Assembly: GCA_017472225.1 (NCBI GenBank)
Contig: JAFUQS010000102.1
Location: forward strand, 1-37,089
DNA: 37,089 nucleotides
Source of the DNA: Clostridia bacterium
GTDB taxonomy: Bacteria; Bacillota; Clostridia; Oscillospirales; Acutalibacteraceae
Direction of reading: 5' to 3'
Shown: positions 22,351 through 27,794 of the stretch, piece after piece
Layout: every line of letters begins with the position of its first letter
Position numbering within the stretch: position 1 is the first letter of the stretch
Made by a program: the position numbers and the translations under genes
Notes under the pieces: model-generated
What the model saw: the letters and a program-made list of their open reading frames with translations, nothing else
Databases searched by the model: none
Told to the model about the DNA's origin: nothing

Positions 22351-22890
22351 TTATTCTTCCATTTGTTTGCCAAGAAAGCCTGCGGCAACCTGAGTGAGCT
22401 TAATATCGGTCTGACCGGGTGCTGTTGCCTTTTCGCCGCAAAGAAGCATAACTGCTCCCATAACATCACCGCCGCCGATAATAGGGCTCATAACTGCAAT
22501 TTTAACAGGCATTTCCTCACTGACAACAAGCTCATCCCTGTCTGTGCCGTATACAAAAGAAGCCCGTCTTTCCATATAGCTTTCCACCATAGGAGAAATA
22601 CGCTTGCCCATAATTTCCTTTTTCGGCATACCCGAAACGGCAATAACATGGTCTCTGTCGCAGATTATAACTGCAAGTCCGCTTGTCCGGTTAAGCACAT
22701 CAACATACTGCTTTGTGTACGGACCAAGCTCACCGATAGGCGAATATTTTTTGAAAATAACCTCACCGTCGGTATCGGTGTAAATTTCCAGAGGGTCGCC
22801 CTCACGGATTCGCATAGTACGGCGGATTTCCTTCGGAATAACCACCCTGCCTAAATCGTCTATTCTACGAACTATTCCAGTTGCTTTCAT
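22351..22890 (-). CDS. spoVT: Stage V sporulation protein T (AbrB family)
   Basis: SpoVT is a DNA-binding regulator of late forespore genes. The 179-aa protein has an N-terminal AbrB swapped-hairpin domain (MKATGIVRRIDDLGRVVIPKEIRR, about residues 1-50) and a C-terminal GAF-like domain (about 56-178). The start is ATG at 22890: the family begins MKATGIVRRID and AAGGAG (22906-22901) lies ten bases upstream. The longer in-frame start at 22959 lies in the leader and is rejected. Its leader (22901-22958) is identical over 58 bases to a second copy at 24925-24982, which heads a truncated spoVT fragment. The gene indicates a spore-forming lineage. Confidence 0.93.
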   Translation of the reverse strand: MKATGIVRRIDDLGRVVIPKEIRRTMRIREGDPLEIYTDTDGEVIFKKYSPIGELGPYTKQYVDVLNRTSGLAVIICDRDHVIAVSGMPKKEIMGKRISPMVESYMERRASFVYGTDRDELVVSEEMPVKIAVMSPIIGGGDVMGAVMLLCGEKATAPGQTDIKLTQVAAGFLGKQMEE

Positions 22891-22900
22891 ATATACATTT

Positions 22901-22958
22901 CTCCTTAAATTACAAATTGTGTTGTTATTATCTGTATTTTGAGGAGATTTATACTGCA
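22901..22958 (-). repeat. spoVT leader, direct-repeat copy 1
   Basis: This 58-bp block directly upstream of spoVT, including its AAGGAG ribosome site, is identical in every base to 24925-24982. Both copies are in the same orientation and each is followed by a start codon encoding MKATGIVRRID. The two copies flank the cyclase-like/nuclease-like cassette. Confidence 0.95.
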
Positions 22959-22962
22959 CGGG

Positions 22963-22991
22963 TTTACTTTTTACCAGATTAATAGTATAAT
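22963..22991 (+). promoter_or_regulatory. Probable promoter of the accessory cassette
   Basis: TTTACT (22963-22968), a 17-bp spacer and a perfect TATAAT (22986-22991), 29 bp before the cyclase-like gene. It begins 5 bp past the spoVT leader repeat, so it belongs to the inserted DNA. Confidence 0.6.
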
Positions 22992-23019
22992 AATTAAAAA
23001 TAAAGAATGCGGTGTTTGA

Positions 23020-23718
23020 ATGAAAAGATCAGAATACGAGGACTATATAAAAAAGAAACTAAATGAACCAAACACATATTCTCAGGGATATGTTGCTTTT
23101 TTGGATATGATGGGATTTCAAAAATTGTGTAAATACGAAAGCTGTGAAAGAATAAAAGCAATAATAGACGATATTGAATTATTTAAATATAAATTCATCA
23201 ATTCCTTTTCAAAATTAGTAATTCCTGAAGATATTATCTCACAAACAACTGTGAAAATAATATCAGACAGCATTATAATTACAACACCTAATAACTATTA
23301 TGGACTTTTGTATATTTTGTATTTCACCGCAACTTTACATATGATGTTGTTAGATTGTGGCGTGCCTTTAAGAGGCGGAATAGAAAAAGGAGATTTCTTT
23401 GTGACTGAAACCACAATTTTTGGACCTGCAGTTATCAACGCTTATCAAATAGAAAATTCAACTACTTATCCTCGTGTTCAAATTTCTGCAAGTATCATTG
23501 ATGATTTAAGAAAAATTGGATTTGAACATAAAAAAACATTTGATTATTATGTCAATTTAAAAAACAACAAAAACATTCATCTCTCAGAAATAGAAACATT
23601 TATTTGTAAAGACTTTGATGATTGTTATTTTGTGCATTACTTCAACACAATTGAAAATATCGCTTTATTTCACAACAGCGTAAAAAAAAAATATATCGCT
23701 TTATTGAAGAACAAATAA
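23020..23718 (+). CDS. Nucleotide-cyclase-like protein (class III fold)
   Basis: This 232-aa protein shows the outline of a class III adenylate/guanylate cyclase domain. It has YVAFLDMMGF (Asp29, first metal position), IISDSIII (Asp83, second metal position), LRGGIEKGDFF (118-127, like the R-x-GI-x-x-G strand), and FGPAVINAYQIE (134-145, with an Asn where cyclases carry the transition-state Asn; the usual Arg is Gln143). No membrane segment or receptor domain is visible. Activity is uncertain. Codon use is more AT-rich than that of its neighbours, and it lies in a cassette between two spoVT leader copies, suggesting transfer. The ribosome site is weak (GGTG). A defence role with the downstream gene is speculation. 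Confidence 0.65.
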   Translation: MKRSEYEDYIKKKLNEPNTYSQGYVAFLDMMGFQKLCKYESCERIKAIIDDIELFKYKFINSFSKLVIPEDIISQTTVKIISDSIIITTPNNYYGLLYILYFTATLHMMLLDCGVPLRGGIEKGDFFVTETTIFGPAVINAYQIENSTTYPRVQISASIIDDLRKIGFEHKKTFDYYVNLKNNKNIHLSEIETFICKDFDDCYFVHYFNTIENIALFHNSVKKKYIALLKNK

Positions 23719-23749
23719 CAAATATAAGGAAAACGAAAAACTAAGTTTA

Positions 23750-23771
23750 AAGTACGAATGGCTTCGTACTT
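23750..23771. repeat. Hairpin between the two cassette genes
   Basis: AAGTACGAA (23750-23758) and TTCGTACTT (23763-23771) are perfect 9-bp arms around TGGC. No T-run follows, so it may attenuate or process the transcript between the cyclase-like and nuclease-like genes. Confidence 0.5.
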
Positions 23772-23828
23772 ATTATAATCACTATTTGAGCAAAAGTTTT
23801 ATATCAAAGATTTCGGAGGAATTATATA

Positions 23829-24728
23829 ATGGCAGACATTAAACTTTTTAATATAAGAGGAAAGGTACAAGAATACCAAAGTGGCACTGTGACACTTGAA
23901 AAAGAACTGCAAACAGTAATCGAAAACAATATGGAAACCTTTTTTGGTGTAACTTTTCTTGCGTCTGAATATCGTACCACCGATGGAGGTAGAATGGACA
24001 GCATCGGCATCGACGAAAACCATTGTCCTGTTATTTTTGAATATAAACGCTCTGTGAAAGACAGCGTTATCAACCAAGGCTTATTCTATCTTAACTGGCT
24101 CCTTGACCACAAAGATAGTTTTAAGGTGCTGGTAATTGAAAAATTGGGATTAAAAGCAGCTGAAACGATTGATTGGACAATGCCTCGGGTTATCTGTGTT
24201 GCAGGTGATTTCACAAAATATGATGAATCTGCTATAAAACAAATGAACCGAAACATCAGCTTGATTCGATATAAAAAATTTGGCGATGATCTTTTGATGT
24301 TTGAGCAGATCAATGAAAATATTGCTGCAGTAATTGAAGATAATACATCTGTTATATCCCCAAAAACAAAAAACTTAAGCAAATCCTTTGCTGACCACAA
24401 AAAAGAGGCACCTTCAACAATTTTAACTATATATGAGGATATTCGCAATTTTGTTTTAAGTTTGGGAGACGATATAACAGAGAACCAATTAAAGTTTTAT
24501 GTGGCTTTTAAGAAAATCAAAAACATAGTTTGCGTTGAAATTTTCAATAACAAATTAATATTACACCTAAAACTTGATGTAACTACAGTAGATTATGAAG
24601 AAGGTTTTACAAGAGACACTTCGGGTATCGGACATTATGCAACTGGAGATGTGGAAGTTACAATTAAAAATCGTACTGATTATGAAAAAGCAAAAATTTT
24701 AATTGAGCGTGCATATAACGAAAACTAA
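23829..24728 (+). CDS. PD-(D/E)XK nuclease-like protein with C-terminal DUF5655 domain
   Basis: The N-terminal half of this 299-aa protein has a nuclease-type core: Glu26/Glu32 in a helix, then GGRMDSIGID (Asp57) and IFEYKR (Glu71-x-Lys73), which together form a PD-(D/E)XK signature. The following INQGLFYLNWLLDH is typical of this group. The C-terminal 100 residues, beginning IYEDIRNFV, match the domain called DUF5655, with DYEEGFTRDTSGIGHYATGDVEVTI. Related proteins have been mislabelled as transport proteins. There is no signal peptide. The start ATG follows GGAGG about nine bases upstream. It is the second gene of the cassette, 110 bp after the cyclase-like gene. A role in DNA restriction or repair is plausible but unproven. 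Confidence 0.78.
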   Translation: MADIKLFNIRGKVQEYQSGTVTLEKELQTVIENNMETFFGVTFLASEYRTTDGGRMDSIGIDENHCPVIFEYKRSVKDSVINQGLFYLNWLLDHKDSFKVLVIEKLGLKAAETIDWTMPRVICVAGDFTKYDESAIKQMNRNISLIRYKKFGDDLLMFEQINENIAAVIEDNTSVISPKTKNLSKSFADHKKEAPSTILTIYEDIRNFVLSLGDDITENQLKFYVAFKKIKNIVCVEIFNNKLILHLKLDVTTVDYEEGFTRDTSGIGHYATGDVEVTIKNRTDYEKAKILIERAYNEN

Positions 24729-24732
24729 ACCT

Positions 24733-24761
24733 AAAAGCGAGGTGAAACTCACCTCGCTTTT
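24733..24761 (+). terminator. Terminator of the accessory cassette
   Basis: AAAAGCGAGGTGA (24733-24745) pairs perfectly with TCACCTCGCTTTT (24749-24761) around a 3-nt loop, with T residues at the end. It begins 5 bp after the nuclease-like gene. Confidence 0.85.
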
Positions 24762-24813
24762 GCTATGTATAAAACCGCCCCAAAACCAGTTTTTGACACC
24801 AATGCGGCGGGTG

Positions 24814-24865
24814 GGGCAAACCAGCGGAAACCCTAGTGTTTATGCGGGGTTCAGGCGGTTTGCCC
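24814..24865. repeat. Nested palindrome at the cassette/spoVT junction
   Basis: GGGCAAACC (24814-24822) pairs perfectly with GGTTTGCCC (24857-24865). Inside, GAAACCC faces GGGGTTC with one mismatch. The whole forms a two-stem nested structure of 52 nt. It ends about 15 bp from the point where the truncated spoVT copy loses similarity, so it may mark the element end or a recombination site. Other possibilities are a structured RNA or a dispersed intergenic repeat. Confidence 0.55.
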
Positions 24866-24913
24866 TATTATAACACAAGCATCGATACGACGAACAATAC
24901 CTGTTGCTTTCAT
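24851..24913 (-). pseudogene. Truncated spoVT 5' fragment
   Basis: Downstream of the second leader copy, ATG at 24913 opens a 20-codon frame. Its first 11 residues, MKATGIVRRID, equal those of SpoVT. Six of the 11 codons differ from the intact gene, all synonymously (for example AGA versus CGT). Similarity then stops and the frame ends at TGA (24853-24851). This is what remains if foreign DNA interrupted a spoVT allele at codon 11. Confidence 0.75.
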
Positions 24914-24924
24914 ATTATACAAAT

Positions 24925-24982
24925 CTCCTTAAATTACAAATTGTGTTGTTATTATCTGTATTTTGAGGAGATTTATACTGCA
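24925..24982 (-). repeat. spoVT leader, direct-repeat copy 2
   Basis: Identical over 58 bases to 22901-22958 and in the same orientation. Between this block and the start codon the copies differ slightly (11 versus 10 bases). It begins 7 bp after the stop of the upstream gene on the minus strand. Recombination between the copies would delete the roughly 2 kb between them. Confidence 0.95.
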
Positions 24983-24989
24983 TAAACAA

Positions 24990-25547
24990 TCATTTATTAT
25001 ATTTTAGAGCTATAACAGCGTCCAGATTATCTATAATAAAACTTTGCGCCGCTCTATCATAAATAACCACGGTATATGTACCTTGTTGTCCTGTTCTTTG
25101 TTCGGTCAAAATTCCCATTGCTTCGCCCTGTTCGGTAGGACGCTTTGCAGTTTTACCATCAAGGCTTGAAATCTCTTTTAACAGACCTATAGAAATCAAC
25201 CAATTTGTCAAATCCCTATGCGAAATTTTTTTCATAGTCTCGTCTGTAATAAGCAAGTTCAACCTCTTGGCAATTTCGCTTATCGGTATAGGCAAATCGG
25301 AATAAGCAAATTTTGATAACTGTTCTTCCGATAATTCAAACTTCGACCGTTTATTTTTCTTTTGCTTTATACCACCGTTTTCAATTACTTGCCTTAAGAT
25401 ATCCGAAACAAAAAAGAAGCATCTTGACAGACGAATATTATTTACAATATCGTCTTCTTTTATTGAAGTATCATCTAACGGGCTTATTCCGTTTGCCAAT
25501 TTATCTATAAATGATTTAGCATATGCTATTTTTTCAAGTTCTGTCAT
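24990..25547 (-). CDS. Hypothetical protein with winged-helix-like segment
   Basis: I do not recognise this 185-aa protein. It begins MTELEKIAYAKSFIDKLANGI. The central part (about residues 70-140, with LPIPISEIAKRLN, DLTNWLISIGLL and RPTEQGEAMGI) looks like a helix-turn-helix/winged-helix arrangement followed by a beta strand pair, so DNA binding is possible. There is no membrane segment or signal peptide. The start ATG at 25547 follows GGAGAG. It lies between a short Fic-like remnant upstream and the second spoVT leader copy downstream, in a region that looks rearranged. Its function is unknown. Confidence 0.7.
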   Translation of the reverse strand: MTELEKIAYAKSFIDKLANGISPLDDTSIKEDDIVNNIRLSRCFFFVSDILRQVIENGGIKQKKNKRSKFELSEEQLSKFAYSDLPIPISEIAKRLNLLITDETMKKISHRDLTNWLISIGLLKEISSLDGKTAKRPTEQGEAMGILTEQRTGQQGTYTVVIYDRAAQSFIIDNLDAVIALKYNK

Positions 25548-25575: not shown

Positions 25576-25710
25576 TTATTTCATCTGAATATAACAAGTT
25601 GACTTTCCTGCTTCTTTACATATTGCAGCAATCAGTCCTAAGATCTCGGAATCCCATTTTTGATTTGTAACAGCAGAATAATTAAAAGGTCTCGTTCCCT
25701 TAGTCTCCAT
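25576..25710 (-). pseudogene. Short Fic-like N-terminal remnant (44 aa)
   Basis: A 44-codon frame starts at ATG 25710, just after a GGGAAAG ribosome-like site, and ends at TAA. It reads METKGTRPFNYSAVTNQKWD, then SEILGLIAAICKEAGKS and a short tail. The pattern RPFNYS...WD.EILGLIAAI.KEAGK resembles the extreme N-terminus of clostridial Fic-domain (AMPylase-type) proteins, but the Fic catalytic core is absent. It could be a decayed gene or an independent small protein. It lies 28 bp upstream of the 185-aa gene and may be cotranscribed. The Fic comparison is from memory and was not searched. Confidence 0.4.
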
Positions 25711-26099: not shown

Positions 26100-26726
26100 T
26101 TATGTGTTTTTCATGATAACCGAGCCTACACATTCACTTACATGCTCACAGGCATCGGCGCATGATTCAAAGCACTCGTATATTTCACGCCATGAAATGA
26201 TTGTAAGCACATCGTTGGTGCTTTTTGTCAGCTCACGCATAGAAGCAAGATACAATTTATCACATTCTTCTTCAGCATCATTAAGCTCAATAATAAGCTC
26301 ACGAATCTTCTTTGAGCGCTTAAAGTTTTCGAACTCATCCATAAGTGCGCAGATCAATTCGCAGGATCTGACAAGCCTCTTTGCAAATTCTATAACAGCA
26401 GGTTCAACCGACTGAATATTATAAATATAGAATTTCTGCAAAATCTCCTCAAGCTTATCGGTCACCTGATCAAGATTATGACTGAGCATATCCAAGTCCT
26501 CACGGTCAACAGGAGTTACAAATGCCTTTGCAAGAGCATCATTCATTTCGTGCTTTTTCTTGTCGGCAGTATGCTCGATTTCGTGCATCTGATGAATCAT
26601 GGTTTCAATTTTATCAGGATCATAGTTCTCAAGACATTCTACAAGATATGTTGCTGCCTTTTTAGAGAGTGCGGCACCTTCCGCAAAGTTTTCAAAATAG
26701 AATTTATCACCTTTAGCCATTTTCAT
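26100..26726 (-). CDS. PhoU-like DUF47 protein, partner of Pit
   Basis: This 208-aa all-helical protein matches the DUF47/PhoU-like family (also called YkaA/Pit accessory protein), which is almost always encoded next to a PiT transporter and is thought to control it. Helical-bundle features such as MHEIEHTADKKKHEMNDALAKAF and the acidic metal-binding-type E/D-xxx-D patterns are visible. It is cytoplasmic. It lies 12 bp after the pit gene in the same operon. GAAAGGA serves the start; Met at 26726 is four bases from it and Met at 26720 ten bases, so either may be used. Confidence 0.92.
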   Translation of the reverse strand: MKMAKGDKFYFENFAEGAALSKKAATYLVECLENYDPDKIETMIHQMHEIEHTADKKKHEMNDALAKAFVTPVDREDLDMLSHNLDQVTDKLEEILQKFYIYNIQSVEPAVIEFAKRLVRSCELICALMDEFENFKRSKKIRELIIELNDAEEECDKLYLASMRELTKSTNDVLTIISWREIYECFESCADACEHVSECVGSVIMKNT

Positions 26727-26738
26727 AATTCCTTTCTA

Positions 26739-27794
26739 TCAGTTAAAAATTAACAAGAACAGTTTTGTTACTATAAAAGCGAGAAGTCCGCATCCGGGGA
26801 ATGTCAGTATCCATGTCATAACCATTTCCTTCACAACACCAAAGTTAATGGCGGAAATACGCTTCACAGCACCAACACCCATAATGGATGTAGTCTTTAC
26901 ATGAGTAGTGGAAACAGGAAGACCAAACACTGAACAGAATACAAGAGCAAGGGATGATGCTATGTCTGCTGAGAATCCCTGATACTTTTCAAGCTTAACC
27001 ATATCCATGCCGACTGATTTTATGATTTTTTTGCCACCCATTGCAGTACCTGCGCCCATAATGACAGAGCAAAGAATCATAAGCCAGGTGGGAATTGAAA
27101 ATGTGGACCCGGCAGCATTTGCATCCTGCAGAGTAAACACACAAAGCAGTATAATACCCATAAATTTTTGACCGTCCTGGGCACCGTGCATAAATGCCAT
27201 TGATGCCGCACCAACAATCTGTGCCCCTTTGAAAAAGGGCTCTGTTTTCGGTCGGTCAGCATTATAGAAAATTTTTGTAACAAGCTTGCAAATCAACCAT
27301 GCAAAGCCAAAACCTAAGGTTACAGAAATTACAATACCGTAAATAACCTTCAGCCATTGAGACCATACGATGGCATCAAGACCGCAAAGAGCCATTGCAC
27401 CGCCTGTGAGACCTGCAATCAGAGCATGACTTTCACTCGTAGGAATACCGAACAACCAGGCCAAGGTTGCCCAGATAACAATGGCAAACATGGCAGCGCA
27501 CAAAACAATAATTACGGTACGCCCTGAGTTTTCCCCGAAATTCACCATGCTTGTAATGGTCACAGCAACTTCATTGCTGATTTTGGTCATTACAAAAACA
27601 CCGAGAAAATTAAACACCGCAGCCATCAGTATTGCAGCCCTCGGCGGCATACAGCGTGTTACAACACAGGTGGCAATTGCGTTCGGGGCATCTGTCCAGC
27701 CGTTCACAAGGATAACGCCCAGCGTAAGTAATACCGCAATAAACAGCAGCGGATTCGCCGTCATCTGATTCCAAAATTCCAATATTGAATCCAT
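26739..27794 (-). CDS. pit: PiT-family inorganic phosphate transporter
   Basis: This 351-aa integral membrane protein has about ten hydrophobic segments and the two PiT signature repeats. The N-terminal one is NGWTDAPNAIATCVVTR (from about residue 26) and the C-terminal one is FGLPVSTTHVKTTSIMGVG (about 295-313). PiT carriers import phosphate, or metal-phosphate, with protons or sodium. Length and the DUF47 gene 12 bp downstream are typical. A promoter at 27847-27875 drives the two-gene operon. I see no clear Pho-type repeat at the promoter, so phosphate control is not shown. Confidence 0.95.
   Translation of the reverse strand: MDSILEFWNQMTANPLLFIAVLLTLGVILVNGWTDAPNAIATCVVTRCMPPRAAILMAAVFNFLGVFVMTKISNEVAVTITSMVNFGENSGRTVIIVLCAAMFAIVIWATLAWLFGIPTSESHALIAGLTGGAMALCGLDAIVWSQWLKVIYGIVISVTLGFGFAWLICKLVTKIFYNADRPKTEPFFKGAQIVGAASMAFMHGAQDGQKFMGIILLCVFTLQDANAAGSTFSIPTWLMILCSVIMGAGTAMGGKKIIKSVGMDMVKLEKYQGFSADIASSLALVFCSVFGLPVSTTHVKTTSIMGVGAVKRISAINFGVVKEMVMTWILTFPGCGLLAFIVTKLFLLIFN

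Follow-up and report, generated by a model that had tools for sequence, protein, structure and literature searches.

Integron gene cassettes form arrays of small and diverse cassettes joined by common linkers. The elements of the staphylococcal cassette chromosome (SCC), including composite SCC, are serine-recombinase cassettes that form arrays at the end of a gene, some copies being without a recombinase. Both likenesses are shared by the element described here, which occupies the 5' end of the sporulation gene spoVT in a stretch of 37,089 nucleotides from a member of the Acutalibacteraceae (Clostridia bacterium, assembly GCA_017472225.1, contig JAFUQS010000102.1, forward strand), referred to throughout as the window. 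The block adjoining spoVT is read as a mobile cassette lacking a recombinase, which would stand in an array growing in the 5' end of that gene. It is probable, in our judgement, that insertion by a serine recombinase founded the site and that small derivatives without the enzyme now swap their cargo largely by homologous recombination between linkers.

Further parallels come from published systems. In the passages of PMC5704250 that deal with them, cis-mobilisable elements (CIMEs), which have lost their integration and transfer genes, and tandem accretion resemble the spoVT cassettes in that an att-type junction is kept and tandem arrays form in one target gene. Streptococcal integrative and conjugative elements (ICEs) with serine integrase triplets target mutT, traG and hsdM; like the spoVT elements, they carry a trio of serine recombinases at one end, insert within a gene and have repeats of 2-8 bp (PMC4701971, in part). 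In Bacillus cereus, gerE harbours the gin element (girA, girB, girC), a non-phage element with three recombinase genes that interrupts this sporulation gene, according to the relevant part of PMC5595907. Tn4451, with TnpX, has a 2-bp core and a large serine recombinase (passages of PMC5704250 and PMC3158075). In the titles and abstract openings of the open papers listed for spoVT with ICEs or recombinases, spoVT was not described as a place of integration, most subscription papers lying outside that scope.

The window carries two copies of the start of spoVT, each with its leader, separated by about 2 kb. The features of the locus are as follows:

22351 to 22890, minus strand: intact spoVT of 179 amino acids (aa) (SpoVT_C, E 2.2e-40; MazE_antitoxin, E 1.3e-11), at the spoVT-side end of the array
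22859 to 22890, minus strand: codons 1-11 of the full spoVT, with the GA dinucleotide at 22859-22860
22901 to 22958, minus strand: cassette-type spoVT leader, proximal copy, from the repeat and the leader comparison
23020 to 23718, plus strand: first cassette cargo gene, whose 232-aa product weakly resembles nucleotide cyclases (PF00211, E 0.016, below cut-off)
23829 to 24728, plus strand: second cassette cargo gene, encoding a 299-aa DUF5655 protein (PF18899, E 5.6e-12) of the PADLOC candidate defence family PDC-S18
24733 to 24761, no strand assigned: hairpin terminator of the linker, a sequence common to other cassettes
24814 to 24865, minus strand: arm, the putative P'-like element end, with a nested palindrome (arm model, 67.6 bits at 24815-24880)
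24867 to 24872, minus strand: TATAAT of the arm, unchanged throughout an alignment of 22 arms and equal to the -10 half of the junction promoter in related ICE-like elements
24882 to 24913, minus strand: truncated spoVT start, codons 1-11, ending in the GA (24882-24883) that forms the junction
24925 to 24982, minus strand: cassette-type spoVT leader, distal copy, presumably brought by an older cassette

The original prediction, made from this sequence without database searches, had described an exact repeat of 58 bp, and the two leaders are indeed identical and in the same orientation; an exact repeat of this length 2 kb apart is far beyond chance. Ungapped extension gave 67 nt at 97% identity (22892-22958 and 24916-24982), and the wider leaders agree at 66 of 69 positions when gaps are allowed, as against 19 of 62 ungapped, owing to an indel. 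Each leader is followed by an ATG and the peptide MKATGIVRRID, read from 22890 down to 22859 and from 24913 down to 24882. Six of the 11 codons (4, 5, 6, 9, 10 and 11) differ, every change being synonymous, as had been described, and the distal copy departs from spoVT after the GA of codon 11. The two forward genes, terminator and palindrome that had been placed between the copies are present. Its genome, a draft of 2.33 Mb in 111 contigs, holds a single copy of the block, and the arm model detected one strong arm in the window.

An explanation of the invariant leader by duplication of the host leader was not borne out. The 58-bp leader was found without mismatch in three of 159 truncated copies with enough leader (that of the window and two from other genomes) and with at least 50 positions matching in 14 of them; among 76 full copies it was exact in one, that of the window, and matched at 50 or more positions in 17. 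The sequence thus appears to be a widespread cassette-type leader and neither a private nor a host duplication, and the two leaders of the window would agree, though the codons differ, because both belong to this one type.

The junction proved to be recurrent. Genomes were drafts throughout, often broken at the array repeats, and counts depend upon the search pattern. When the genome of the window and those of 58 relatives were searched for spoVT and its leader, matches were obtained in 53 of the 59, many with extra partial leader or start matches, and the same order was seen repeatedly: leader, ATG, spoVT codons 1-11 and then the arm (a few bases, TATAAT and the palindrome), with the hairpin terminator in cassettes. 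Among 394 genomes of the order, a pattern of codons plus arm, which allowed up to two mismatches and favours copies of this type, was present in 39, and by genus in 33 of 169, with no match in the backward control. A scan of genome contigs with it returned at least 118 contig stretches from several studies; the titles among the contig matches listed were Clostridia, Oscillospiraceae and similar, many from ruminant guts. The pattern had no exact match in viral contigs, and positions 24740-24990 of the window had no match in plasmids or phages; a phage or plasmid origin was rejected on these grounds.

All loci retrieved together held 165 distinct truncated copies of the main class, 160 of which have the GA at codon 11. 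A further 76 copies run on into spoVT (11 as short open reading frames (ORFs) and seven off the contig end), and the remaining spoVT-start copies comprise 12 that belong to a second class and 12 that fit neither. Codon variation among truncated starts falls mainly at third positions. A palindromic insert of approximately 27 nt (GCCC..TTGGGG) was observed in codon 3 of truncated copies, at the same place in two genomes (locus L127 at 3930 and 7348, and L130 at 5901).

Since the codon-plus-arm search favours copies with codons, a model of the arm alone was built, and matched 56 of 147 genomes at E <= 0.001. At E <= 1e-10, 26 of 28 matches were directly preceded by spoVT codons; these comprised 20 newly retrieved loci (18 read by script and two by eye, one of the two without an ATG) and six loci read before. 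The other two strong matches were one at a contig start and one without spoVT codons (G467:C17:29340). Weaker matches covered the arm partially, and some lay elsewhere, for example after a tRNA-like end.

Partial relatives of the arm hairpin (CCCGCATAAACACTGG-like) were seen away from spoVT in L365, L368, L371, L373 and L374, directly after a tRNA-like 3' end in L371; such relatives are perhaps the ends of other element families. In L192, L221, L248, L258, L286, L021, L045 and L049 the spoVT leader is made up of the arm-hairpin motif with a ribosome site behind it, so the spoVT leader itself can be element-derived.

An empty site was identified in genus g89, where genome G178 has one spoVT and one leader. 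The truncated copy of G201 resembles G178 both in its leader (67/70) and in its upstream sequence (328/394), and the leader of the full spoVT of G201, which is cassette-type, agrees with the only leader of G178 at 50 of 69 positions. When the flanks of G201 were joined at the GA, 798 of 906 positions matched G178. This empty and filled pair lends support to the proposal that DNA was inserted at codon 11 of spoVT together with a replacement leader and start. The particular empty site that had been foreseen, a 185-aa gene followed by one leader and an intact spoVT, was unsupported, the 185-aa gene being cargo itself, as discussed below.

G201 and G138 have a cassette in common that begins immediately behind the terminator and extends to the first codons of the full spoVT, with 1015 of 1017 positions identical; outside it the arm and terminator agree at 116 of 136 positions and the spoVT body at 448 of 508. 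Because this 1.0-kb cassette has two breakpoints inside linkers, homologous recombination is indicated, and this mode of movement, raised in the original prediction, gains its backing here. In six cross-genome cassette pairs the match starts inside the linker, at +70, +93, +163, +166, +173 and +179 from the truncated ATG, and in one ICE-like pair the match starts at +25. The same cargo was found in genomes of different families; a 159-aa cargo is common to G031, G006 and G055, where arms and leaders differ.

The same truncated start and arm end larger elements in other genera and families. Genes near the arm end include ParA and ParB (G090), a VirD4-type fragment with Maff2 (G425) and a TrbL-like gene below cut-off (G157); T4SS-DNA_transf and Maff2 were the conjugation-type domains above cut-off, and TrbL_4 fell below it. 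In genomes with such ICE-like elements the full spoVT begins only at codon 11, its first codons being replaced by TTGACA-N6-GA at all 11 ends examined, and one of these ends (G014) is found within the window's own genus. A triplet of large serine recombinases lies near the TTGACA-N6-GA end in all five genomes with enough sequence (G090, G358, G113, G335 and G081), directly beside spoVT in four, three other ORFs intervening in G358. All 12 triplet ORFs of the other four genomes matched the triplet of G113 (E <= 6.4e-141), and Resolvase and Recombinase domains were found in the seven scanned of the 15 triplet ORFs. The earlier statement that no recombinase is present stands for the window cassette, but the same arm ends elements bearing recombinase triplets. 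The ICE-like elements interrupt spoVT, as do the codon-34 elements described at the end, whereas the window cassette leaves the gene intact.

Both ends of the G090 element lie on one contig and strand, approximately 67 kb apart. Rejoining the ends at the GA yielded TTGACA-N17-TATAAT in seven of eight genomes; a spacing of 17 was also obtained in the eighth (G081), which has a second, intact spoVT start, when counted by hand on its other copy. Elements forming this sequence are at L171, L173, L176, L177 and L180, with attL loci at L109, L112, L113, L123, L125, L126, L138 and L139. The TATAAT would accordingly be one half of a promoter formed only in the circle. A circle-junction promoter has reportedly been described for Tn4451 and TnpX, to go by the title of a paper by Lyras and Rood from 2000. 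Because the arm and the GA are common to recombinase-bearing elements, the truncated start of the window looks like the attL of an ICE-like element.

As the junctions suggest, an element with large serine recombinases would have recombined at the GA of codon 11, joining the host leader and 11 codons to the arm in an attL-like arrangement. ICE-like members would leave spoVT without a start, and the gene would be rebuilt in the cassette members because these bring their own leader, ribosome site and first codons. Once linkers of about 280 bp (leader, 11 codons, arm and terminator) were in place, homologous recombination with crossovers inside them would exchange the cargo, a step that one pair displays in its sequence and that others suggest.

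Set against the systems introduced above, the spoVT cassettes differ from integron cassettes in that the linker is made of a host-gene start and an arm. SCC carries a ccr-type recombinase and targets rlmH; here the target is spoVT and no relative of the four large serine recombinases compared was found in the cargo, and the cassettes lie at the 5' rather than the 3' end of the target, are much smaller and have other hosts. As in CIMEs an attL-type junction is present (GA and arm), but on the other side the cassette has the full spoVT leader and start and not TTGACA-N6-GA as an attR-type end; the cassettes are also unlike the CIMEs of the passages cited in their size (0.66-6.4 kb), their one or few genes, their spread over many genera and the swapping of cargo by linker recombination, and the window contains no ICE. 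The three integrases of the triplet ICEs recur in all five related ICE-like elements with enough sequence, and neither recombinase nor transfer genes are among the cargo of the window cassette; the triplet targets given in the relevant part of PMC4701971 do not include spoVT, and the junction promoter TTGACA-N17-TATAAT was seen in the spoVT elements. Excision of gin rebuilds gerE (PMC5595907, in part), whereas spoVT cassettes rebuild the gene while inserted. Tn4451 differs in its low target specificity and single recombinase, and no cassette arrays are described in the passages of PMC5704250 and PMC3158075 concerned.

Several observations weigh against a site founded by a serine recombinase and now exchanged between linkers. 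No empty site with the window's own flanks was found, no cross-genome cassette pair starts its match at the GA (+32), the match starting inside cargo in the pairs other than the six above, and no cassette circle was seen. Comparison of four large serine recombinases with 145 cargo ORFs revealed no relative, other integrase types and transfer genes not being searched singly; since no such relative occurs in the cargo or adjoining the window array, the founding insertion is argued for cassettes from the shared arm and GA. Furthermore, seven of 35 arrays (44 pairs less nine whose downstream copies are short ORFs) have identical distal and full codons, where 0.7% is expected from other arrays, and none of 10,000 shuffles reached this figure. 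A simple crossover at the GA does not explain these seven arrays. Their leaders differ in five (41/60 to 55/68) and are alike in two (63/70 and 68/70), by gapped values, as ungapped counts understate similarity at indels. The identical codons could have arisen by recombination with empty alleles of the same species, which is preferred to a 32-bp target-site duplication.

All movement might instead be site-specific, with the recombinase triplets of resident ICEs moving cassettes in trans at the GA, as SCC moves under Ccr, and homologous recombination only blurring the record. The arm and GA common to recombinase-bearing elements would fit, as would the presence of an ICE-like end in the window's genus and the g89 pair, in which the distal leader is native and the proximal one that of the cassette; Ccr enzymes also recombine non-canonical att pairs, according to the part of PMC5595907 that treats them. 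The junction on a cassette circle would however be attL-like, one and the same cargo is accompanied by different arms and leaders in different hosts and no pair breaks at the GA, and we regard exclusive trans-mobilisation as rather unlikely. Exchange through linkers, and distal codons that sometimes equal the full codons, would equally be expected were the truncated copies fragments of spoVT paralogues or tandem duplicates with no site-specific founder. The shared GA of 160 of the 165 copies, which run into one arm that also ends recombinase elements, and the empty site in G178 make such an origin improbable; a degraded paralogue or plain duplication was rejected because the truncated copies have one common end point and one arm.

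Preservation of the leader, the invariant TATAAT and the palindrome in cassette and ICE-like arms, together with codon variation mainly at third positions, might mean that truncated copies persist because they regulate cargo or spoVT, through a short leader peptide, a promoter of sporulation type or a hairpin. Third-position variation is however expected of recently displaced functional starts and was favoured by the search. RNAalifold returned no consensus pair for the arm from 22 rows, which were heterogeneous and some of them cut, and the three weak matches from Rfam fell short of its cut-off and did not cover the arm. In 50 of 75 cassettes the largest cargo ORF runs opposite to spoVT and so would not be driven by the truncated copy, and a regulatory role is given little credence. 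That genomes are drafts, with many contigs ending near these repeats, could point to an assembly artefact of metagenome bins; the number of contig stretches from several studies and the arrays inside long contigs (for example G124 in L130 and G147 in L136) make this scarcely credible. Founding by a serine recombinase followed by exchange between linkers remains the preferred reading.

The cargo varies widely. Between consecutive copies 76 distinct cassettes were delimited, with a median of 1.65 kb and a range of 0.66-6.4 kb. An ORF of 110 aa or more is present in 75 of them, among which the orientation against spoVT noted above was counted, and 47 contain just one such ORF. Two or three truncated copies precede spoVT, intact or cut by the contig end, in eight of the 35 arrays. 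The 145 cargo ORFs fell into 115 clusters. The search for other cargo at the same codon, suggested with the original prediction, succeeded in many relatives. The commonest Pfam matches among 114 cargo ORFs of at least 110 aa were N6 methylase (four), type I specificity (three) and Fic (three), besides TPR, AraC-type regulators and oxidoreductases (three each). PADLOC matches include restriction-modification, SoFic, mad2/mad5-like and several PDC families. At 1e-5, PADLOC matched four of ten cargo ORFs hand-picked from the 114, two by weak TPR matches only, and none of ten chromosomal-type control genes, two of which (PhoU and Pit) are possibly cargo. A purely defensive cargo was rejected on these counts. 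Unrelated genes are present beside restriction, Fic and other defence-like genes; given this mixture, the array is probably a low-cost slot for accessory and defence genes. Similar short secreted-type proteins beside a signal-peptidase-like protein, named by eye, were seen in the cassettes of L050 and L277 (c09 and c70).

A wider proposal, which we hold tentatively and short of even expectation, is that the spoVT start serves as an integron-like platform for gene capture across an order of gut Clostridia. Triplet-recombinase ICEs would put its conserved linker in place, and single accessory and anti-phage genes would then be gathered and exchanged through this linker, both by the same recombinases acting in trans and by homologous recombination, spoVT being rebuilt at each step. 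The spoVT start with its arm provides a marker for many small mobile cassettes of gut Clostridia with uncharacterised, partly defence-like genes, and the spread of tiny cassettes without recombinases becomes testable. The arrays also offer a way for a sporulation regulator to be an insertion hot spot without being lost.

In the cassette of the window, the 299-aa protein matched PADLOC PDLC04946 (PDC-S18) at E 5.6e-129 over residues 1-298 of 299. A search of solved structures gave one weak, uninformative match for each cargo protein and no solved relative of the 232-aa protein. Beyond the distal leader lie the following:

24990 to 25547, minus strand: 185-aa gene, cargo of an older distal cassette (137/185 identity to the cargo of L245; also matched in L130)
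25576 to 25710, minus strand: 44-aa Fic-family remnant (83-85% nucleotide match to the Fic gene preceding the 185-aa gene in L245 and L130)
26100 to 27794, minus strand: phosphate genes resembling PhoU and Pit, which may be cargo of a yet older block

The 185-aa protein has 74% identity to the cassette protein of L245, and its homologue follows a Fic gene, the domain being found in both, in the cassettes of L245 and of L130 (G124). An older cassette, its own distal junction lost, is read in the window because the 185-aa gene is cassette cargo elsewhere and the Fic remnant is correctly placed; the gene is thus cargo and not native. The order is the older cassette (Fic remnant and 185-aa gene), then the cassette with the 232-aa and PDC-S18 genes, then spoVT. 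At least two rounds are therefore visible, the later as a complete cassette and the earlier only as remains.

The Pit and PhoU genes may also be old cargo, because their counterparts in G124 (L130:6161-7852), with protein identities of 78% and 81%, stand between two truncated spoVT copies. No truncated spoVT copy and no strong arm was found in the window ahead of the Pit and PhoU genes. PhoU as a native neighbour of the array was dropped on account of the G124 pair, and housekeeping-type genes seem able to become cargo. From 28067 onwards, on the minus strand beyond the phosphate genes, begins a very large, repetitive and apparently secreted protein gene, judged from ORF starts only.

A second insertion point, used by a second element family, exists within spoVT. 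Six genomes of the genus carry a single large serine recombinase at spoVT that forms an in-frame fusion with the C-terminal portion of SpoVT, in ORFs of 722-740 aa, one cut by the contig end; the fusions are at L309 (G003), L310 (G018), L311 (G026), L312 (G021), L313 (G016) and L042 (G010). In each of the five scanned of the six, a single ORF contained SpoVT_C, Resolvase and Recombinase domains. Codons 1 to approximately 34 of spoVT, followed by a different arm, occur elsewhere in G003, G010, G018 and G026, as the opposite end of the element, with TnpV near the copy in G010, and cassette-like derivatives of this codon-34 class seem to occur too.

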